Part shown: one piece after another, positions 6,730 to 19,267 of the stretch
Position numbering within the stretch: position 1 is the stretch's first letter
Layout: every line of letters starts with the position of its first letter
DNA from: Desulfuromusa sp.
GTDB taxonomy: Bacteria; Desulfobacterota; Desulfuromonadia; Desulfuromonadales; Geopsychrobacteraceae
DNA: 34,280 bases
Reading direction: 5' to 3'
Assembly (NCBI GenBank): GCA_027858895.1
Contig: JAQIBX010000183.1
Coordinates: forward strand, 1 to 34,280
The notes under the pieces: generated by a model
Databases searched by the model: none
What the model saw: only the letters and a program-made list of their open reading frames with translations
What the model was told of the DNA's origin: nothing
Program-made: the position numbers and the translations under genes

Positions 6730-9444
6730 ATGACGAGCAAACAGAATAGTCACCAATCGATTAAGGGCAGACTGAGACAAATGTCTCTGGTTGTCGTTCT
6801 GGTTTTTATCTTGATTGTCTGCGTTCTTTATTTCTCTTCCCGAAGGGTGCGCTCAAGTATCGATCAGATTGTTGAAAGCAGTTTACAGCAAACTGTAGAA
6901 AATTCGCAGGACAGCCGTGATTTTGGATTGTTGAATGCACGGTTGAGGGTTTTTGAAAATACCTTTTATCTTGACGAAAAATGGTTTGAAACTGAAAACA
7001 AAGGCCTGCAGGAAAACATCCAGAACCTGAAAATTGACATTTCTGGTTCTCACTTAGAGTCCCTGTTGGAGCAATTGCAAAAACAATTTTCTGTTTATCT
7101 GGACCGCCGTGAGTGGCTCAATTATCTTCTCCTCTGGCGTTCTGAGCAGGATAAGGATATTGGCGAACTGATCTTGTTTCTGCAAGAAATAATAGCTGAA
7201 AAAATGATCAGCGTGACACTGGAGGGTGGCGAAATTGATTATCTGGAACAGTTGGCCGTTCTCGTCTCCGGTTATCGGGAAAGTTTATTAGAAATAGCGA
7301 AACTCAATGCAGAAGAGAACCCCGCACATCTGCTTTTTGCTCTCATCGATTCCCCTATCCCGTTAAAGTCAGAATTGGATAATCTGGTTATGCGACTGGG
7401 TACTCTAACCGCTTCAGAACCACCTATTAATCGTTTAGGCCAACATTTAATCGATCATTTTGCCTACTATCAATTTCTGATGCGACAGTATCAGGTGGAG
7501 ATGGCTCGACTGGGTGAATTAACCCGGAATTTAGATCAATCAACAGCGCAAATTTTATCTGCAATGGAGCAAATAGACAAGCAGACAGCTGCGACAATAG
7601 ATGAGTCCAGGCTTGAAATTCAACATACCATCCTGACCACGGTCAGATCTGTCCAGTTTTTTTTGTTGCTGTTGGCTGTTGGGCTTTGGTTCGCACTGAG
7701 AAATCTATTCAAGAATCATATTCAAGCTCCTATGGATCGGGTCAGTGAGCGCTTGAAAACGTTTCAGCAGGGTGATCATAGTTCCCCAATGCAATTGGGT
7801 CGGAATGATGAGTGGGACGATATTGAGGCGGTTTTTAATCAAATGCTTGCGGATCTGCAAAAGGGTTTTTCCGCTTTGCAAGAATCTGAACAACGTTACC
7901 GGGAAATTTTTAACAATGCGACGGAGGGTATTTTTCGTTCTACCCTTGCCGGGCAAATGTTTGAGTTGAATCCTGCTGCAGTATCCATGCTCGGATTTGA
8001 TTCGGCTGAAGAAGCTATATCTGCTTTGTCTGATCTCGGATGTCAGCTGTATCAAGACCCGCAAGCTCGTGAGCAGATGCTTGAGAGATTGTTTGAGCAA
8101 GGGCGGACCCTTGACCATGAATCAATCATGCGGCGGAAAAATGGAGATTTGTTTTGGTCTTCGCTTAATAACCACCTGATTCGGGATGATGATGGGGAAA
8201 TTCTCTTTATTGAGGGCACTATCCGGGATATCTCTGCCCACAAGGCGGCCCAGGAATCCCTTCAGCAATTACAGTCCTACCTGCAAAATATCATTGATTC
8301 AATGCCCTCGGTGTTGATAGGTGTTGATACAAATATGCAGGTGACACACTGGAATAAACGAGCTGAACATGAAAGCATTCTCACGGCAGAACAAGCCAAG
8401 GGATTGTCCATGCCCGATGTCTTGCGATTATTTAACCCGACCACCTATGTGCCGAAACTCTCAGAGACCTTACGTACCAGAAAACCGACCCGGTTACTCA
8501 AAGTTGAAAGTAGCAAAAAGGCAAAAAATGGCAGCAGTCGTTTTTTTGATATTCTGATTTATCCACTATCTCTGACCGAGGCAGGTGGCGCGGTGATTCA
8601 TATCGACGATGTCACTGAGCGGCTGCGCCTGGAAGAAATGATGGTTCGTTCAGAAAAAATGCAATCCATTGGTGGACTCGCTGCCGGGTTGGCCCATGAA
8701 CTCAACAATCCGCTGGCAGTTATTCTGCAGAGTGTTCAGGTCTTGGGTCGGCGCTTGTCTCCCGACTTGGATCAAAACCGGAAAACGGCTCAAGAACTGG
8801 GAACAACGATTGAGACGATTGTCGAATACATTAGTCTGCGAGGCTGTGACAAAATGCTTCATTCAATCTCAAATGCAGGGCATCGTGCGGCCAAGATTGT
8901 TGAAAATGTGCAGAGTTTCAGCCGGCGGGGGGGATCCAACTTTATCCCCTGCACGATCTCAAATCTATTGGAGAGAACAGTTGAATTAGCTGGCAGTGAT
9001 CATGATATGCGGCACCATTTTGATTTCAGGAAGATTAGCATCGTTCGCGATTATCAATCAGTTCCAGACGTGTGCTGCGAGACAAGTCAGATTCAGCAGG
9101 TCTTTCTCAGCTTGTTGAAAAACGCTGCCCAAGCTCTGAGTCTTAGTATCGATGATCCACAGATGACCTTGAGGATTGTGCCTTCCGGGACCGACCATGT
9201 TTGCTTGCAAATTGAAGATAACGGATCGGGAATGGATGCGGATGTCGCGGCAAGGATTTTCGATCCCTTCTACACAACGCGAGAGGTTGGTCAAGGGACC
9301 GGACTGGGATTGTCGATTGCTTATTTCATCGTGACCCATAATCATAATGGTCGCTTGAGCGTGATCTCTGAGCCGGGTAAGGGGAGCTGCTTCGAGATAA
9401 TCTTGCCGCTGGAAAATGTCGCAGAGGTCTTTGTTCTTGAATAG
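6730..9444 (+). CDS. Membrane sensor histidine kinase with HAMP and two PAS domains
   Basis: 904 residues. TM1 is near residues 19-36, followed by a helical periplasmic sensor region of about 260 residues, TM2 near 299-316, HAMP about 316-370, PAS domains about 384-505 and 512-635, then the kinase core. The H-box is GLAAGLAHELNNPLA (phospho-acceptor H656). The ATP-binding core shows the N-box LSLLKNAAQAL, the G1 box EDNGSGMD, FDPFYTTRE and GQGTGLGLS. There is an extra segment of roughly 40 residues between the H-box helix and the next conserved helix. No receiver domain is attached and no response regulator adjoins, so its partner must be encoded elsewhere. The ribosome site before ATG 6730 is poor, suggesting translational coupling to the binding-protein gene upstream. 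Confidence 0.9.
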   Translation: MTSKQNSHQSIKGRLRQMSLVVVLVFILIVCVLYFSSRRVRSSIDQIVESSLQQTVENSQDSRDFGLLNARLRVFENTFYLDEKWFETENKGLQENIQNLKIDISGSHLESLLEQLQKQFSVYLDRREWLNYLLLWRSEQDKDIGELILFLQEIIAEKMISVTLEGGEIDYLEQLAVLVSGYRESLLEIAKLNAEENPAHLLFALIDSPIPLKSELDNLVMRLGTLTASEPPINRLGQHLIDHFAYYQFLMRQYQVEMARLGELTRNLDQSTAQILSAMEQIDKQTAATIDESRLEIQHTILTTVRSVQFFLLLLAVGLWFALRNLFKNHIQAPMDRVSERLKTFQQGDHSSPMQLGRNDEWDDIEAVFNQMLADLQKGFSALQESEQRYREIFNNATEGIFRSTLAGQMFELNPAAVSMLGFDSAEEAISALSDLGCQLYQDPQAREQMLERLFEQGRTLDHESIMRRKNGDLFWSSLNNHLIRDDDGEILFIEGTIRDISAHKAAQESLQQLQSYLQNIIDSMPSVLIGVDTNMQVTHWNKRAEHESILTAEQAKGLSMPDVLRLFNPTTYVPKLSETLRTRKPTRLLKVESSKKAKNGSSRFFDILIYPLSLTEAGGAVIHIDDVTERLRLEEMMVRSEKMQSIGGLAAGLAHELNNPLAVILQSVQVLGRRLSPDLDQNRKTAQELGTTIETIVEYISLRGCDKMLHSISNAGHRAAKIVENVQSFSRRGGSNFIPCTISNLLERTVELAGSDHDMRHHFDFRKISIVRDYQSVPDVCCETSQIQQVFLSLLKNAAQALSLSIDDPQMTLRIVPSGTDHVCLQIEDNGSGMDADVAARIFDPFYTTREVGQGTGLGLSIAYFIVTHNHNGRLSVISEPGKGSCFEIILPLENVAEVFVLE

Positions 9445-9467
9445 ATAGTGATTGGTTGGAGGTTCAG

Positions 9468-9884
9468 ATGGCAGTTATTGCTTGGAAGAGTATTTATGAA
9501 ACCGGTATTGTTGCATTGGATAATGAACATCGCGGGCTGGTTCAGGAAATTAATCGCCTTTATGAAGCGGTTCGGGACAAACGGGGAGAGGCCGTTTTAG
9601 CGGACATTCTGGCGATGCTCGAAAAATATACCGTTGATCATTTTCAACATGAAGAAAAATTGCTGGAGGAGTATCATTTTTCCGGCCTCGCAGAGCATCA
9701 AAAAATTCACCAGGAACTGATTGATGAAATTCAGGAATTTAAAAAGAGAGTAACCTCTGGTACTGAAGATCTTGCAAGGGAATTACTGACATTTCTTCGC
9801 GGGTGGTTGTTGGAGCACATTCTGAAAGTAGATAAAGAGTATGGGGCTTTTCTGGAGTCTCGAGGCGGACGGTTCATTGAGTAA
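9468..9884 (+). CDS. Bacteriohemerythrin
   Basis: 138-residue single-domain hemerythrin, a non-heme di-iron protein that binds O2 reversibly. All expected iron ligands are present: H21 (in DNEH), H58 and E62 (HFQHEE), H77 and H81 (HQKIH), and H117 and D122 (HILKVD). The N-terminus MAVIAWKS...G is typical of the short bacterial family. I chose ATG 9468 because TGGAGG lies just upstream; the in-frame TTG at 9456 lies inside that site. It starts 23 bp after the kinase gene and probably shares its transcript. Possible roles, by inference, are O2 delivery, scavenging or sensing in an organism sensitive to oxygen. Confidence 0.93.
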   Translation: MAVIAWKSIYETGIVALDNEHRGLVQEINRLYEAVRDKRGEAVLADILAMLEKYTVDHFQHEEKLLEEYHFSGLAEHQKIHQELIDEIQEFKKRVTSGTEDLARELLTFLRGWLLEHILKVDKEYGAFLESRGGRFIE

Positions 9885-11427: not shown

Positions 11428-11508
11428 AAATCCCCCTCAATCCCCCTTTACAAAAAGGGGGATGTTTAATCGCCCCCCCTCTTTGGCAAAGAGGGGTTGG
11501 GGGAGATT
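11428..11508. repeat. C-rich/G-rich inverted-repeat element containing a ribosome site
   Basis: About 81 bp holding two perfect hairpins (CCCCCTTT at 11442-11449 with AAAGGGGG at 11454-11461; CCCCTCTTT at 11476-11484 with AAAGAGGGG at 11488-11496) inside an outer imperfect inverted repeat (AATCCCCCTCAA on the left, TTGGGGGAGATT on the right). This form is common as a dispersed intergenic repeat in many bacterial genomes. The right arm supplies the GGGGGAG ribosome site of the next gene. Translating the element gives a false N-terminal extension (RPPSLAKRGWG) from the ATG at 11462. Confidence 0.8.
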
Positions 11509-11509
11509 G

Positions 11510-13267
11510 ATGCTATTCAGGAAAACTGATTTGAAAAACTTATTTCAATATATTCTTCTCGCTATTTTCCTGCTTTTCTGCAGCAATACAACCGCTGTGG
11601 CAGAAGAACCGGTGCGTCTGGATCTGCCGGTGCGGATCGGCGGTGACTATAATTATCCCCCTTATGAATATCTGGATCAGGATGGTTTGCCGACTGGCTA
11701 TAATATTGAGCTGAGTCAGGCCGTTGCCCGGGTGATGGGAATGGAGATCAATATTCAACTTGGCTCCTGGGGGGGGATGCGCCAGGCTTTGGCTCGGGGT
11801 GATGTCGATATTCTGATGGGAATGGCACATACAGAAGAGCGACTGGACGAAGTTGATTTTTCTATTCCCCATGCAAAAGTGCATCAATCCATCTGGATTC
11901 GCAACGACAATGAAACCATTCGCGCAGTTAATGATCTGGTTGGCAAAGAGGTCATTGTGATGAAGGGGAGTGTGATGCACGACTTCATGCTCGAAAATGG
12001 CATCGTAGCTGACCTGTTTATGGTGCAAACTCTGGCTGATGCGCTGAATCTGTTGGCTTCAGGTCATCACGATTGTGCCTTGGTTGCAAAACTTCCCGGT
12101 GAATATCTGCTGAGTAATCCGGCATTATATAACATCCATCCCATTGCCCGCCCGCTGGTTGCGCAGAATTATGGTTTTGCGGTCAAAAAGGGAAATCTTG
12201 AACTGCTGGCGCGGTTTAATGAGGGCCTCTCCTTGTTGAAAACATCTGGCGAATACCGCCAGATCAGGGAAAGATGGCTTGGGGTTCTGCAGCCAGAACC
12301 AATGTCTTGGACAAATATTATCCGTTACGGGGCGCTGGTTATCGGGCCGTTACTTCTGGTACTGATTGCTTTTGCCCTTTGGTCGAGGACTTTGCGTCGC
12401 CAGGTGGCATTAAGAACCGAAGAGCTGGAACGAGAAATTGCTGAACGGATGCGTTCCGCAGAAGAGTTGCAAGTGCGTCAGAAGCAACTGTTGCATGCTG
12501 ATAAAATGACCTCGCTGGGAATTCTGGTTGCCGGGGTGGCCCATGAGATCAACAATCCTAACGGTTTGATTCAACTTAGTCTGCCTCAATTGAGTAAGGC
12601 CTATCAAAGCATTGAACCGATCCTTGATGCCCATTACCAGGAGCGGGGCGATTTTAAGCTCGGCTGGTTCGGGTATTCTCGGATGCGTCAAGAAATCCCG
12701 CAAATGTTGGAAGAAATGTTGGATAGCTCTAATCGAATTAAGCGAATTGTTGAAGATTTGAAGGATTTTGCCCGGCGCAATGATTCCGGGTTGGATGATA
12801 TGGTTGACTTGCACGAAGTCATTCGCTCGGCAGTGCGGTTGTTGGATAATGCGCTACGCAAGGCAACTCATCATTTCCTGGTGAGCTATTCACCGAAGTT
12901 GCCATGTTTCCGCGGTAATGGACATCGTATTGAGCAGGTTGTCGTTAACCTGATTTTGAATGCCTGTCAGGCGCTGACTTCTGTTGACCAGGCGATTCAG
13001 TTGCGAACTTACGCGTTATCGGAGGAAGGGATGGTGGTTCTTGAGGTTCGAGATGAAGGTTGTGGCCTGGATGAAGACACTTTACAGCGAATTACCGATC
13101 CGTTTTTTACCACTAAACGGGAAACCGGTGGAACCGGCCTCGGGCTTTCGGTTTCCGATGGAATCGTTAAGGATCACCATGGGCGGTTGGAATTTTCAGG
13201 ACAGACTGGCAAAGGGATGGTGGTACGATTGTTGTTGCCAATCTATAAGGACAAGGAACAGGAATAA
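11510..13267 (+). CDS. Sensor histidine kinase with periplasmic solute-binding domain
   Basis: 585 residues from ATG 11510. A signal/anchor segment (about residues 10-31) is followed by a periplasmic family-3 solute-binding domain (about 38-258, beginning RIGGDYNYPPYEYLDQDGLPTGYNIEL), a membrane segment (about 270-291), a short coiled linker, HisKA with AGVAHEINNP (H345) and an ATPase domain (N-box NLILNACQAL, DEGCGLDE, TDPFFTTK, GGTGLGLS). There is an insertion of about 40 residues after the H-box. The predicted ligand is an amino acid or other small polar solute by family analogy; the actual ligand is unknown. The stop codon overlaps the start of the response-regulator gene by one base. The upstream start at 11462 is rejected because it would translate a repeat element. 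Confidence 0.9.
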   Translation: MLFRKTDLKNLFQYILLAIFLLFCSNTTAVAEEPVRLDLPVRIGGDYNYPPYEYLDQDGLPTGYNIELSQAVARVMGMEINIQLGSWGGMRQALARGDVDILMGMAHTEERLDEVDFSIPHAKVHQSIWIRNDNETIRAVNDLVGKEVIVMKGSVMHDFMLENGIVADLFMVQTLADALNLLASGHHDCALVAKLPGEYLLSNPALYNIHPIARPLVAQNYGFAVKKGNLELLARFNEGLSLLKTSGEYRQIRERWLGVLQPEPMSWTNIIRYGALVIGPLLLVLIAFALWSRTLRRQVALRTEELEREIAERMRSAEELQVRQKQLLHADKMTSLGILVAGVAHEINNPNGLIQLSLPQLSKAYQSIEPILDAHYQERGDFKLGWFGYSRMRQEIPQMLEEMLDSSNRIKRIVEDLKDFARRNDSGLDDMVDLHEVIRSAVRLLDNALRKATHHFLVSYSPKLPCFRGNGHRIEQVVVNLILNACQALTSVDQAIQLRTYALSEEGMVVLEVRDEGCGLDEDTLQRITDPFFTTKRETGGTGLGLSVSDGIVKDHHGRLEFSGQTGKGMVVRLLLPIYKDKEQE

Positions 13268-14667
13268 TGGAAAAAAAACTATTTCCTTCATTTGGGGTAT
13301 TACTGGTCGATGATGAACTTCCCTGGTTGCGGAGCCTGAGTCTGACCCTGGAAGGACCGGGGGGAGTCACAAATTTGCTGCAGTGCCAGGATAGCAGAGA
13401 GGTGATGCCGATATTGGAGCAGAACGATGTTGGTCTGGTGCTGCTGGATTTGACTATGCCGCACATTTCCGGAGAAGAATTGCTGGGGCAGATTGTCACC
13501 GAGTATCCACAGATCCGGGTCATTATTCTCAGTGGAATGAATCAACTGGAAACGGCAGTTAATTGCATGCGCGCAGGAGCCTTTGACTATTTTGTTAAAA
13601 CGGTTGAGGAAGAACGTCTGGTCGATGGGGTACGGCGTGCCATCCGGATGATTGAGCTGGAATCTGAAAATCGTGCTATTCGCAGGCGGTTTTTTCATGA
13701 TCAGCTCGATACGCCTGAGGTGTTCGCTCCTATTATCACCAATAATGCAGCGATGCGAGCCAGATTTCAATATCTGGAAGCGGTAGCTCCCAGCAGCCAA
13801 CCGATTTTAATTACTGGTGAAAGTGGCGTCGGTAAAGAGCTGGTCGCTCAAGCGATCCATACTCTCAGTTGCAATAGTGGATCGCTGGTATCGGTTAATG
13901 TTGCCGGGCTCGATGATAATGTTTTTGCCGATACTTTGTTCGGGCATGTGCGTGGTGCTTTTACCGGTGCTGATAATGTACGCAAAGGGATGGTTGAAAA
14001 GGCCGCTGGGGGAACTCTGTTTCTCGATGAAATTGGGGATCTAAATTCAGCATCGCAGGTGAAACTGTTGCGCTTGTTGCAGAATGGCGAATATTACCCT
14101 CTGGGTAGTGATCAACCGAAACAGATGACTGCCCGGGTGGTGGTTGCGACTCACGCTGATCTGGATGCCAAAATGGCAGCAGGAGAGTTCCGTCGCGATC
14201 TCTATTACCGGCTCTATTCACATCATGTCAATTTGCCACCCTTGCGGGAGCGGAAAGATGACCTGCCGCTACTGTTGGAATCTTTTCTAGCTGAAGCCGC
14301 AGTTAAGCTTGGTAAAAAGAAACCGACTCCGCCGAAGGAGCTGGCAGTTTTATTGTCGACCTATAGTTTCCCCGGAAATATTCGTGAGCTCGAAGCGATG
14401 GTTTACGATGCAGTGAGCCAGCACAACGGCAAAACCCTCTCGATGAAGAGTTTTCTCAAACGGATTGGTACTCAGGCTCAATATCCGTCGGTCGAGCAGT
14501 CTTTGATTGCAGAAAATCCGTTTAGCCGATTGGATGATTTACCGACTCTGCAGCAAGTTGGGAAGCTGTTGATTGATGAAGCAATGCAGCGTTCTACTGG
14601 GAATCAGAGTATTGCCGCACGTCTGTTGGGAATTTCCCAACCCGCGTTGAGTAAGCGATTAAAATAG
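13267..14667 (+). CDS. Sigma-54-dependent response regulator (NtrC type)
   Basis: 466 residues. The receiver domain has the acidic pair D15/D16, phospho-acceptor D61 (LLDLTMP) and conserved K111. The AAA+ domain has Walker A GESGVGKE (184-191), the sigma-54 contact loop GAFTGA (230-235), Walker B GTLFLDEIGD (249-258) and the arginine-finger region FRRDLYYRL. The C-terminal Fis-type helix-turn-helix ends at the last residue (NQSIAARLLGISQPALSKRLK). ATG 13267 overlaps the kinase stop (TAATG), indicating translational coupling with the cognate kinase. The sigma-54 promoter and repeats just downstream suggest that it controls the TAXI-TRAP operon. Confidence 0.94.
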   Translation: MEKKLFPSFGVLLVDDELPWLRSLSLTLEGPGGVTNLLQCQDSREVMPILEQNDVGLVLLDLTMPHISGEELLGQIVTEYPQIRVIILSGMNQLETAVNCMRAGAFDYFVKTVEEERLVDGVRRAIRMIELESENRAIRRRFFHDQLDTPEVFAPIITNNAAMRARFQYLEAVAPSSQPILITGESGVGKELVAQAIHTLSCNSGSLVSVNVAGLDDNVFADTLFGHVRGAFTGADNVRKGMVEKAAGGTLFLDEIGDLNSASQVKLLRLLQNGEYYPLGSDQPKQMTARVVVATHADLDAKMAAGEFRRDLYYRLYSHHVNLPPLRERKDDLPLLLESFLAEAAVKLGKKKPTPPKELAVLLSTYSFPGNIRELEAMVYDAVSQHNGKTLSMKSFLKRIGTQAQYPSVEQSLIAENPFSRLDDLPTLQQVGKLLIDEAMQRSTGNQSIAARLLGISQPALSKRLK

Positions 14668-14681
14668 GAAGGAGTCTAAAC

Positions 14682-14794
14682 CCATATGCGTTTGGTTATA
14701 GGCGTTCTTCTGGTTATATTTTTTAATTAATTGAAATCTTTGAGAAAATTTTATTATATATCGATTTGCCGCCATATGTGGTTATAGGAGTTCC
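14682..14794 (+). promoter_or_regulatory. Candidate upstream activator sites (GGTTATA repeats)
   Basis: Two related blocks lie upstream of the -24/-12 promoter. Copy 1 starts at 14682 with CCATATG, then five bases, then GGTTATAGGCGTTC ending 14707. Copy 2 starts at 14772 with CCATATG, then one base, then GGTTATAGGAGTTC ending about 14793. A third shorter copy of GGTTATA is at 14712-14718. The blocks sit about 80 to 180 bp before the promoter, the usual range for enhancer binding by NtrC-type activators. The likely binder is the response regulator encoded immediately upstream (inference). Confidence 0.55.
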
Positions 14795-14865
14795 ACCCCA
14801 AGATGTTATCTTCCCTTTGTAAAACAGTATTATGAATCAATGACTTGTGGTCGTTTGTAACTTTT

Positions 14866-14881
14866 TGGTATCTTCCTTGCT
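14866..14881 (+). promoter_or_regulatory. Sigma-54 (-24/-12) promoter of the TAXI-TRAP genes
   Basis: TGG at 14866-14868 and TTGCT at 14877-14881 place the invariant GG and GC exactly 10 bases apart (TGGTAT-N5-TTGCT against the consensus TGGCAC-N5-TTGCW). The expected transcript start is near 14892, about 50 bp before the binding-protein ATG. The neighbouring response regulator carries the GAFTGA loop needed to activate sigma-54 polymerase. Confidence 0.7.
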
Positions 14882-14944
14882 GTTACTTGCCTATTGCACA
14901 CATCGGGTGGGCAAAATCAATTCTTTTTTGAGGAGGAAGTATCC

Positions 14945-15913
14945 ATGAAAAAAATGTTTATGTATCTGTTGGCTTTTGCTGTTGCCGCCAGTTTTGTTCC
15001 AGTTAGCCAATCTGAAGCACAGCAGTTTGTCACTATCGGTACCGGTGGTGTTACCGGTGTTTATTACCCGACTGGTGGTGCAATCTGCCGTCTGGTTAAC
15101 AAGGGTAAAAAAGAACACGGTATCCGTTGCTCGGTTGAAAGTACTGGCGGTTCCGTTTACAACCTGAACACCATCGCAGCTGGCGAGTTGGACATGGGCG
15201 TTGCTCAATCTGACTGGCAGTACCATGCTTACAACGGCACCAGCAAATTCGAAAAACAAGGCGCTAACAAAGATTTGCGCGCGGTTTTCTCTGTTCACCC
15301 CGAGCCGTTCACCGTTGTTGCCCGTAAAGATTCCGGGATCAAAAACTTCGAAGACCTAAAAGGCAAGCGAGTTAACATTGGCAACCCAGGTTCCGGTCAG
15401 CGCGGCACCATGCAAGTGGCTATGAACGCTTATGGCTGGACCACTGACGATTTCAAACTGGCTTCCGAGCTGAAATCTTCCGAACAAGCTTCTGCCCTGT
15501 GCGACAATAAAGTTGACGCCATGGTTTTTGTCGTTGGTCATCCCAGTGGTTCGATCAAAGAAGCGACGACCTCTTGTGACTCAGTTATTGTTAATGTTTC
15601 CGGACCTAAAATTGACAAACTGATCAAGGACAATTCCTACTACCGGACCGCAACTGTTCCTGGTGGCATGTACCGCGGCACAGATACCGATACCAAGACC
15701 TTTGGTGTTGGTGCAACCTTCGTTTCTTCTGCCAAGGTTCCTACTGAGGTGATTTACAATGTTGTCAAAGCTGTGTTCGAAAACTTTGATGATTTCAAAA
15801 AGCTTCACCCGGCATTTGCCAACCTGAAAAAAGAAGAAATGATCAAAGATGGTCTGTCTGCTCCTTTGCATGATGGCGCTGTTAAGTACTACAAAGAAGC
15901 TGGTTTGATGTAA
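14945..15913 (+). CDS. TAXI-family TRAP transporter substrate-binding protein
   Basis: 322 residues from ATG 14945, which follows a strong GAGGAGG site; the in-frame TTG at 14894 is rejected. The signal peptide is [19 protein letters not shown]..., with likely cleavage after SEA near residue 24. The mature protein starts [20 protein letters not shown] and has the TAXI-family segments [26 protein letters not shown] and, later, [15 protein letters not shown]. It would capture an unidentified ligand (characterised TAXI proteins bind glutamate or other organic acids) and hand it to the fused permease encoded next. Codons such as CTG, GGT and AAA dominate, hinting at high expression. A strong hairpin separates it from the permease gene. 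Confidence 0.92.
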
Positions 15914-16061: not shown

Positions 16062-18671
16062 ATGACCAAAACGGACGATAACCTGATCCCTGAAGAAGAA
16101 TTGAGTGCTGCCGATCTCAAGCTTGCAGAAGAGCTCGCCAGCTCAGAAGCTGGCGCTCGCAACCCGACGGGAGCTTTCCCGAAAAAAGTTCTTTTCTTCG
16201 TTCCGCTGATCTGGACCCTTTTCCAACTCTGGTATGCATCACCGCTGCCCTTCATCTTTAATTTCTTTGTCGTCAACTCTACGGAGGCGCGGGCTATTCA
16301 CCTGGCGTTTGCGATATTTTTAGCATTTGTCGCCTTCCCGACCTTTAAGAAATCACCGAAAAACTATATTCCATTGCAGGACTGGGGTCTCGGATTGATC
16401 GGTGCCTTTTGTGGGTCTTATCTATTCATTTTCTACAGTGCGCTTGCCGACCGACCGGGGATGCCCTCACAGATGGATTTGGTTGTCTCTGTCGTCGGGC
16501 TGGTATTATTGCTCGAAGCAACCCGCCGGGCACTTGGTCCACCGTTGATGGTCGTTGCGACGGTTTTTATCATCTATACTTTTGGTGGTCAGTTTATGCC
16601 GGATGTTATTGCCCATAAGGGAGCCAGCCTGTCCAAAGGGATGTCCCATTACTGGTTGGGGACAGAAGGGGTTTTCGGTGTCGCTCTGGGGGTTTCGACC
16701 GGCATGGTTTTCATGTTCGTGCTCTTTGGTGCTCTGCTGGAAGCCGCTGGTGCTGGTAACTATTTTATCCGCACCGCTTTTGCTGGCCTTGGACATCTCA
16801 AAGGTGGTCCGGCCAAGGCGGCCGTTGTTTCTTCTGGTTTGACCGGTCTGGTTTCTGGCTCTTCTATTGCTAATGTTGTCACAACTGGAACCTTTACCAT
16901 TCCGTTGATGAAAAAAACTGGATTCTCCGCTGAAAAAGCCGGTGCCATTGAGGTGGCTTGCTCAACCAATGGCCAGTTAATGCCACCTGTTATGGGTGCC
17001 GCCGCTTTCTTGATGGTTGAGTACGTTGGTATTACCTATATCGAAGTTATTAAACACGCATTTCTACCGGCGATTATCTCTTATATTGCCCTCATTTATA
17101 TTGTCCATCTCGAAGCCTGTAAAATGGGACTCGAGGGGATGGAAAAAAACATCACCAAGACAGTTTCAAAAAGGCTTCTTACGTTTGCTTTTACGGTTCT
17201 TTCGCTGATTATTATTGGCGGAGTCACCTACTACGGGTTAGGCTGGATCAAAGGCGTCGCCGGTGGAGCGACGATATATATTGTTTCTGTTCTGTTGGTG
17301 GCGGCTTATCTGTTTCTGCTTTGGGTCGCCTGCAAGGTCCCCGAACTGGAACAAACGACGGAGATCAATGAACTGCCACCGCTAGGGCCAACGGCTCAGG
17401 CTGGCCTGTATTTTTTACTGCCGGTTGTGGTGTTGATGTGGTGTTTGACTGTAGAGCGTCTGTCCCCTGCGCTTTCTGCCTTTTGGGCAACGGTCCTGAT
17501 GATCTGCATCGTTGTGACCCAGCGGCCTCTGAAGGGTGTTTTCCGCAAGATGCAGGGTGAAACATTTGCCTTCAAAACCGGTCTTACGGATCTGATTAAT
17601 GGCATGGTGGCTGGTGCACGCAACATGATTGGCATCGGCGTTGCGACTTCTGCGGCAGGGATTGTCGTTGGTACCGTGACCTTGACCGGCATCGGTCTGG
17701 TTATGACCGAGTTCGTCGAGTTTATTTCCGGCGGTAACCTGATAGCGATCCTGTTTTTTACCGCCATTATCAGTTTGATCCTGGGCATGGGCTTGCCGAC
17801 TACAGCTAACTATATTGTTGTTTCGACCCTGATGGCACCGGTTATTGTCGATCTGGGTGCCCAGAACGGCCTCATTGTCCCCCTGATTGCTGTCCACCTG
17901 TTCGTTTTCTACTTCGGGATTCTGGCTGACGATACGCCACCGGTTGGCCTGGCGGCCTTTGCCGCTGCCGGGATATCGGGGGGCGATCCGATCAAAACCG
18001 GTATCCAAGGCTTCACCTACGACATTCGAACCGCAATTTTGCCATTCATGTTCATCTTTAACACCCAGCTGCTGCTGATGGGTATCGATCACTGGTATCA
18101 CCTCGTTATAACCGTTGTTGGTGCTACCTTGGCCATGTTGGCCTTCGCCGCAGCGACCCAGGGATTCTGGCTGACCAAGACCCGGCTTTGGGAAACAGCA
18201 GGTCTGTTGCTGATCGCCCTGATGCTGTTCCGACCTGGTCTTGTCTGGGACAGAATTTATCCACCATTGATCGAAGAACCTGCGGCACAACTGGAAAGTT
18301 ACATTGCCAATATGGATCCCGGTTCATCGCTACGTCTTGTCCTCCAGGGGGAAAAGATGAATGGAAAGATTTTCACCAAGACCATCATGTTGAAGATTGG
18401 TGAAGAAGCGACTGGCGCCGAAAGGATGGCTGGAGTCGGATTTGAAACCCGTGAAGAAGAGGGCAAAATTTTAATCGACAACGTCGTTTTCTCCAGTGCG
18501 GCAGAAAAAGCCGGTATCGATTTCGATCAGGAAATTTTGAACCTGCAGGTACCAACCCATCGTCTGCCAAAAGAGTTAGTCTACATCCCGACCTTAACTC
18601 TGTTTGCCTTTCTCTATGTGGTGCAGTCGCGGCGCCGAAAGAAGGATGAATTGGCGAAGTTGGTCGTGTGA
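16062..18671 (+). CDS. TRAP transporter permease, fused 4TM/12TM (DctQM) with C-terminal DUF3394-like region
   Basis: 869 residues from ATG 16062 (GAAGGA upstream). A charged N-terminal tail is followed by about four membrane helices (small-subunit part, about residues 44-200) and then the large DctM-like part with GLTGLVSGSSIANVVTTGTF and, in the second half, GMGLPTTANYIVVSTLMAPVI. This fused arrangement goes with TAXI binding proteins and imports ligand with sodium. The last ~165 residues contain two further hydrophobic stretches around a soluble region with a PDZ-like look (GVGFETREEEGKILIDNVVFSSAAEKAGI), matching the TRAP-associated DUF3394 domain. It is probably expressed with the upstream binding protein by read-through of the hairpin. 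Confidence 0.92.
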   Translation: MTKTDDNLIPEEELSAADLKLAEELASSEAGARNPTGAFPKKVLFFVPLIWTLFQLWYASPLPFIFNFFVVNSTEARAIHLAFAIFLAFVAFPTFKKSPKNYIPLQDWGLGLIGAFCGSYLFIFYSALADRPGMPSQMDLVVSVVGLVLLLEATRRALGPPLMVVATVFIIYTFGGQFMPDVIAHKGASLSKGMSHYWLGTEGVFGVALGVSTGMVFMFVLFGALLEAAGAGNYFIRTAFAGLGHLKGGPAKAAVVSSGLTGLVSGSSIANVVTTGTFTIPLMKKTGFSAEKAGAIEVACSTNGQLMPPVMGAAAFLMVEYVGITYIEVIKHAFLPAIISYIALIYIVHLEACKMGLEGMEKNITKTVSKRLLTFAFTVLSLIIIGGVTYYGLGWIKGVAGGATIYIVSVLLVAAYLFLLWVACKVPELEQTTEINELPPLGPTAQAGLYFLLPVVVLMWCLTVERLSPALSAFWATVLMICIVVTQRPLKGVFRKMQGETFAFKTGLTDLINGMVAGARNMIGIGVATSAAGIVVGTVTLTGIGLVMTEFVEFISGGNLIAILFFTAIISLILGMGLPTTANYIVVSTLMAPVIVDLGAQNGLIVPLIAVHLFVFYFGILADDTPPVGLAAFAAAGISGGDPIKTGIQGFTYDIRTAILPFMFIFNTQLLLMGIDHWYHLVITVVGATLAMLAFAAATQGFWLTKTRLWETAGLLLIALMLFRPGLVWDRIYPPLIEEPAAQLESYIANMDPGSSLRLVLQGEKMNGKIFTKTIMLKIGEEATGAERMAGVGFETREEEGKILIDNVVFSSAAEKAGIDFDQEILNLQVPTHRLPKELVYIPTLTLFAFLYVVQSRRRKKDELAKLVV

Positions 18672-18716: not shown

Positions 18717-18769
18717 CAAGGAGCGAAGGTTGTTGCAGTCGTCGAGTGTCTAGATAAATGGAGAATACT

Positions 18770-19267
18770 ATGAGTCTGAAGATTGAAAAAATTCTTGTTG
18801 CTAGAGATATGAGCAAAGAATCCTCCCGGGTGATTCGCTATGCCTTGGAATTGGGGTGTAAATTCCATGCTCAGGTTCACGTGCTACATGTCATGCCGAC
18901 TGTTGATCCCTCAGTGCTAAATAGGGTGGCTTTGACTATGGGTGCGGATAAATTGGCTGAATTGAACGCACAAAACGAAGCAGAACTGGCCGAAAAAACG
19001 AAGGCGCAGTTGCATAAAATCATTCAGGAAGAAACTGAATTGATAGAGTGTGAAGTTGTTCACCCTCCTGAGGTCGAGGTTCATCATGGTGACCCGGTAT
19101 CAATGATCCTCAGTGTGGCTGATCGTCTGGATGTCGATATGATTGTTCTTGGCAGCCACAGTAAGGGACGATTAGCCTATGCATTCCTGGGCAGTGTGGC
19201 AGAAAAAATCTTGCATAAAAGCCATCGCACCATTGTTGTGGTACCGCCGCAAGTGAAAAATAATTAA
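18770..19267 (+). CDS. Universal stress protein (UspA family)
   Basis: 165 residues from ATG 18770, chosen because GGAG lies 7 bp upstream; the ATG at 18758 overlaps that site. The protein has the UspA alpha/beta fold pattern (KILVARDMSKESSRVIRYALELG at the start) and the ATP-binding signature GSHSKGRLAYAFLGSVAEKIL near the C-terminus. It starts 98 bp after the TRAP permease. UspA proteins next to TRAP transporters are known: TeaD of Halomonas binds ATP and modulates the ectoine TRAP system. A similar regulatory role is inferred, not shown. Confidence 0.88.
   Translation: MSLKIEKILVARDMSKESSRVIRYALELGCKFHAQVHVLHVMPTVDPSVLNRVALTMGADKLAELNAQNEAELAEKTKAQLHKIIQEETELIECEVVHPPEVEVHHGDPVSMILSVADRLDVDMIVLGSHSKGRLAYAFLGSVAEKILHKSHRTIVVVPPQVKNN

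Follow-up and report, generated by a model that had tools for sequence, protein, structure and literature searches.

Sigma-54 activators are numerous and their targets are mostly unknown. Among the closest described systems are the NtrC/DctD-type enhancers, which combine, as at the locus presented here, a response regulator bearing an AAA+ domain and a Fis-type HTH, several sites located ~ 85–200 bp upstream, and a GG-N10-GC promoter. For Rhizobium DctD, the available part of the source likewise describes multiple sites, at least two, although these are inverted repeats of the TGTGCG-N5/6-CCGCACA type and not the GTTAT half-sites found here (PMC11077940). In Desulfovibrio vulgaris, the motifs of enhancer-binding proteins (EBPs) have been reconstructed comparatively beside their own regulator genes and next to conserved sigma-54 promoters, and, according to the available sections of that study, motif similarity was not always in step with the similarity of the DNA-binding domains (PMC4641369, section 6).

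The window, i.e. the whole stretch of 34,280 nucleotides that was analysed, is part of a 2.78-Mb draft genome and carries successively the genes of a sensor kinase and an NtrC-type response regulator, an intergenic region, and the genes of a TAXI solute-binding protein (SBP), a TRAP permease and a universal stress protein (Table 1). We consider it highly probable that positions 14686–14881 form the enhancer and sigma-54 promoter of the TAXI-TRAP operon, that the neighbouring upstream two-component system drives this element, and that residues Q458 and P459 of the regulator set the choice of bases. This reading is built on sequence conservation, geometry, covariation and held-out prediction, from which we infer protein binding, IHF binding, phosphorylation, activation and the nature of the ligand.

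Table 1. Features of the two-component/TAXI-TRAP locus, in coordinates of the window
Feature	Position	Strand	Basis or remark
Sensor histidine kinase with periplasmic SBP_bac_3 ligand-binding domain	11462–13267	+	Pfam PF00497 7.5e-33, HATPase_c 4.1e-21
NtrC-type response regulator (receiver, sigma-54 AAA+ domain with GAFTGA, Fis-type HTH), predicted binder of the array	13267–14667	+	Pfam PF00072, PF00158, PF02954; motif covaries with recognition helix
Codons of specificity residues Q458 and P459	14638–14643	+	Top columns for the outer bases; Q458 aligned to Fis Arg85
Regulator site 1 (frame)	14686–14699	+	Right half GTTAT perfect (GGTTATA 14694–14700); left arm decayed, 2/5
Regulator site 2 (frame)	14704–14717	+	Right half GTTAT perfect (GGTTATA 14712–14718); left arm 1/5
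Regulator site 3 (frame)	14772–14785	+	Right half GTTAT perfect (GGTTATA 14780–14786); left arm 1/5
IHF-type site AATCAATGACTTG, between site 3 and promoter	14835–14847	+	Exact match to WATCAANNNNTTR
Sigma-54 promoter TGGTATCTTCCTTGCT (-24/-12)	14866–14881	+	GG 14867–14868, N10, GC 14879–14880
Predicted transcription start	14892	+	~ 12 bp after -12, from promoter geometry
TAXI-family TRAP solute-binding protein (target gene)	14945–15913	+	NCBIfam TIGR02122 1.4e-115; Pfam NMT1_3
Fused TRAP permease with DUF3394 (target operon)	16062–18671	+	NCBIfam TIGR02123 1.1e-202; Pfam DctM, DUF3394; start codon uncertain
Universal stress protein	18758–19267		

The target is identified as TAXI-TRAP by its matches to TIGR02122 (385.6 bits, cut-off 84.35) and TIGR02123 (675 bits, cut-off 320.65), both of which exceed the threshold. 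The regulator has the receiver, the AAA+ domain with GAFTGA in its translation, and the Fis-type HTH of group I (NtrC-type) bacterial enhancer-binding proteins. It is nevertheless neither NtrC (NR(I)) nor AtoC, as the NCBIfam equivalog cut-offs were missed (ntrC 299.9 bits for 558.6, AtoC 293.3 for 714), and DctD was rejected on its sites, GTTAT dyads being conserved here versus the TGTGCG...CCGCACA inverted repeat given for DctD in the available part of PMC11077940. The genome itself holds one RpoN gene and five genes of the HU/IHF family, IHF and HU taken together. Upstream of the locus, positions 6730–9884 carry the gene of a multi-PAS sensor kinase followed by that of a hemerythrin-domain protein.

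Within the intergenic region, TGGTTATA occurs three times, starting at 14693, 14711 and 14779, with start-to-start distances of 18 and 68 bp and 86 bp between the outer pair. The coordinates and the 86-bp core distance given by the sequence-only reading were reproduced, and the copy that it listed as a third one is indeed present, but it stands in the middle of three sites that are conserved as an array. Dinucleotide shuffles of 14668–14866 yielded at least three TGGTTATA in 0/20,000 cases and at least two in 1/20,000, while GGTTATA-N11-GGTTATA with at most one mismatch occurs a single time across the 2.78-Mb genome, at this very locus. The closest likeness between blocks, TGGTTATAGGCGTTC and TGGTTATAGGAGTTC (14/15 identical), belongs to the two outer copies. 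With 12 bp separating CCATATG from GGTTATA in block 1, and 8 bp separating them in block 2, the blocks do not form one rigid repeat.

Comparison with close relatives (L002–L023, n = 22, regulator 71–90% identical) separated these two components. The GTTAT triple, with spacings of 17–19 and 66–72 bp, was recovered in 18/22 relatives with at most one mismatch per half-site and exactly in 14/22; it is missing from L013 and L017 and, together with the promoter pattern, from L016 and L019. None of the orthologous regions of the 22 relatives contains CCATATG, which was rejected as a component of the motif. By this comparison, the conserved unit is the GTTAT half-site and CCATATG lies outside it. The proposal of repeated CCATATG...GGTTATA blocks serving as enhancer of a sigma-54 promoter, for which an alignment across related genomes had been suggested as a check, is hence retained for the GTTAT triple and the promoter and abandoned for CCATATG.

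The exact GG-N10-GC spacing claimed downstream of the repeats was verified, TGGTATCTTCCTTGCT presenting it in a TGG..TTGC context, and an identical or similar -24/-12 element is found in the orthologous regions of relatives. Between site 3 and the promoter, the window carries an exact match to WATCAANNNNTTR, which we take to be the IHF consensus. IHF-type sites with at most one mismatch occupy this interval in 31/90 regions (window included), for a dinucleotide-shuffle expectation of 11.3 on average and 18 at most (20 sets); exact sites number 5, for 0.6 expected in the 90 regions, and 18 of the 31 sites begin 28–31 bp ahead of the -24 element. The arrangement of an IHF-assisted enhancer, with an IHF-type site between enhancer and promoter, is thereby present in the sequence and enriched across relatives. 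Both this site and the dyad form of the regulator sites in relatives had been missed by the earlier reading. In the 5' leader, a hairpin (14894–14914, + strand) lies between the predicted start and the Shine-Dalgarno; it is weak in the window, where mismatches interrupt the stem, and a stem of the same shape is stronger in most same-genus relatives, with paired changes (GTCCAC/GTGGAC, GCCCAC/GTGGGC, TACCCAC/GTGGGTA).

In wider relatives, the full site is a dyad (inverted repeat), ATAAC-N4-GTTAT, arranged as tandem dyads 18–19 bp apart with a third at 85–89 bp and the -24 element 91–97 bp further on. This geometry was assessed on 131 regulators (duplicates removed; helix QP, QQ, RQ or RP; promoter pattern within 450 bp) by the best placement of three dyads, with the distance between sites 1 and 2 (d12) ranging over 15–23 and that between sites 2 and 3 (d23) over 60–99. 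A three-dyad score of at least 24/30 was reached by 76/131 regulators and by 0/131 shuffled sequences (shuffle maximum 21), and all 30 scored bases are correct in, for example, L024, L033, L142, L143 and L321. Among those 76, d12 equals 18 in 53 and 19 in 15, the distance between sites 1 and 3 (d13) is 85–89 in 57, and site 3 lies 91–97 bp from the -24 element in 53. The window geometry of 18/86/94 (d12, d13, site 3 to -24) fits this layout. Its array scores 19/30, its left arms are near random, and the full-dyad classifier makes no call on it.

The alternative that survives best, although we hold it unlikely, is that the copy in the window is decaying, all left arms being lost and the promoter of this species having little regulation left or none. 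Left arms matching at 2, 1 and 1 of 5 positions speak in its favour, since most relatives of the same genus match at 4–5 of 5 in site 1; by contrast, the three right halves GGTTATA are perfect and their spacing is conserved, next to an intact promoter and an exact IHF-type site. Moreover, sites 2 and 3 keep the right, promoter-facing arm alone in several same-genus relatives too.

The dyad does not seem to mark a wide regulon: in each of 14 genomes of the same genus, TATAAC-N4-GTTATA with at most one mismatch gives 1–10 forward matches, and a reversed control pattern gives more in all 14. Several other occurrences of the system were observed. In Desulfobacterales (L043, L044, L275–L304), the same three-site layout is built of ACAAC-N4-GTTGT, and the target of L043 (by Pfam) and L044 (by a similar translation) is an MFS transporter and not TAXI. 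In Photobacterium and relatives (gamma-proteobacteria; L031, L270, L271), the regulator is scattered over 6/247 genomes of the order, which suggests horizontal transfer of a two-component-transporter cassette. Finally, the window's own genome encodes a paralogous regulator (G000:C91, L119; 57% identical) with a PQ helix, outside the QP specificity class, associated with GTTGA/GTTGT-type sites and a sigma-54 promoter before the gene of a response-regulator-like protein.

Under the preferred reading of a functional enhancer, the SBP_bac_3 domain of the sensor would bind an amino-acid or dicarboxylate-like ligand and the sensor would phosphorylate the regulator, dimers of which would occupy the three sites at 0, +18 and +86 bp (half-site GTTAT; dyad ATAAC-N4-GTTAT in relatives). 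IHF would bend the stretch that separates site 3 from the promoter, and the AAA+ assembly would open the RNA polymerase-sigma-54 complex at 14866–14881. The regulator thereby probably switches on a nutrient transporter. Downstream of regulators with a QP helix, the targets are TAXI proteins (window, L126, L128, L142, L024), an aspartase/fumarase-type lyase (L127) and sodium:dicarboxylate symporters (L031, L032), which makes an amino acid or a dicarboxylate the most probable ligand.

The part of these results most worth the attention of specialists is a residue-base rule. Arrays differ among paralogues with different recognition helices. With X1 and X2 denoting alignment columns 458 and 459 (Q458 and P459 in the window), and b1 and b2 the outer bases of GTT-b1-b2, a QP helix goes with AT, QQ with GT, RQ with GC and RP with AC. 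X1 would thus read the outermost base (Q for T, R for C) and X2 the next base inward (P for A, Q for G). Motifs were called by a procedure blind to the protein, which retains the best of 16 outer-base pairs and makes a call at a score of at least 1000, a threshold reached by 1/485 shuffles. The discovery set comprised 144 regulators, of which 96 had a promoter, 59 were called and 57 had a full prediction; both bases were correct in 56/57, the sole miss (L182, RP) being a tie between GC and AC, and 37 of the 96 with promoter received no call. RP-type regulators (L137, L179, L182, L186) often have asymmetric sites, with a left half GCAAC and a right half GTTAC, so that a P at position X2 may permit G in one of the arms. 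For P at X1, one row was called, and GTTGT as well as GTTGA appears in other PQ rows.

The rule was fixed in writing before any held-out locus was inspected, and these loci belong to other orders and classes; L043 is among the discovery rows on which the QQ part of the rule was built. Three loci were dropped from the held-out set: L033, L275, which is the gene of L043 again, and L322, which is that of L224. Within the family, L037 and L034 share their downstream DNA with L212 and L190, respectively. Among 137 held-out loci, 48 had a promoter and all 38 callable arrays agreed with the prediction, many of them from close kin, so that the 38 do not count as independent events (4/4; 2/2 new gamma-proteobacterial, 15/15 new Desulfobacterales and 15/15 new class-level relatives; 2/2). 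When rows lacking the promoter pattern were scored over their first 330 bp, with both sets combined, 24 were called; 21 of these followed the rule and 3 contradicted it.

Shared ancestry offers another account of such a match: the array could bind another protein, regulator or repressor, with the helix correspondence inherited by neighbouring DNA and protein. Array and regulator are indeed co-inherited, and there are few supported helix switches that arose independently. Trees from which the HTH was left out require 9–10 helix changes; contrasts on well-supported branches number 3 or 2 for X2, depending on the analysis, and 1 for X1 in both, all concordant and too few for a significant sign test, and the best trees, unsupported branches included, give 5–6 contrasts each and none opposite. 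We nonetheless judge this alternative improbable, because the two columns that track the bases best among the 466 of the regulator are neighbours where the recognition helix begins. In 67 representatives (< 85% identity), column 459 accounts for 0.89 bit out of 0.99 for b1, and column 458 for the entire 0.97 bit of b2; both rank first. Furthermore, eight genomes contain two or three regulators of different helix type, and every motif is as predicted. X1 also falls at the position of E. coli Fis Arg85, to which Q458 aligns: b2 occupies position 7 in the 14-bp dyad, R at X1 pairs with C (G on the other strand), and Fis Arg85 contacts a conserved guanine at position 7, according to the available part of PMC4784862. 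By analogy with Fis, this alignment is independent support for the residue-base match. Since the motif changes with two recognition-helix residues among paralogues, it is tied to the adjacent regulator; GGTTATA as the motif of that regulator, as initially proposed, is upheld by conservation and helix covariation, with CCATATG removed and the full site in relatives being an inverted repeat.

Base composition, with GTTAT in AT-rich genomes and the GC-richer GTTGC in GC-rich ones, is a very improbable cause of the motif difference and was excluded because the eight mixed-helix genomes hold each motif kind beside its predicted helix type; in addition, the GC content of the first 200 bp downstream overlaps between QP (0.30–0.60) and RQ (0.37–0.64). 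That the repeats arose by chance or by a small duplication without function, as the likeness of the outer copies over 15 nt might suggest, is scarcely credible given the shuffles, and we regard it as refuted by the fixed-spacing conservation in 18/22 relatives.

Beyond this locus, we find it fairly likely that the Fis-type HTH of sigma-54 activators uses a modular two-residue code, in which X1 and X2 act each independently and two adjacent changes insulate paralogous systems in one cell while the rigid layout of 18 + 68–70 bp and IHF is kept. If so, the protein could reveal the targets of uncharacterised activators of the family, and two substitutions could shift specificity. A rule giving the site from two residues makes target prediction directly testable in this large family, and would explain how several near-identical two-component systems can share a cell without activating one another's promoters. 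The conserved 18 + 68–70 spacing would likewise be a concrete constraint on activator assembly on DNA.

A literature search, covering few subscription journals, returned no description of the GTTAT motif or of a residue-base code for sigma-54 EBPs, and no TF-site correlation study of sigma-54 EBPs or of the Fis-type HTH. The claim that no equivalent had been described stands for the GTTAT motif alone, the reconstruction of EBP motifs beside their regulators being already established in the available part of PMC4641369. Correlation studies of GntR, IclR and MerR regulators compare protein columns with site bases as was done here, for other HTH families, as far as the available parts of these sources extend (PMC4494728, PMC8222616, PMC5045206). 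E. coli Fis differs as a low-specificity nucleoid protein with a 15-bp core, whereas the site here is a 14-bp dyad whose cognate residues X1 and X2 are variable. Compared with NtrC/DctD-type enhancers, the present system is distinguished by its fixed 18 + 68 three-site layout and its TAXI-TRAP operon target and, unlike in the D. vulgaris EBP study, two residues explain the greater part of the motif variation inside a single regulator family.
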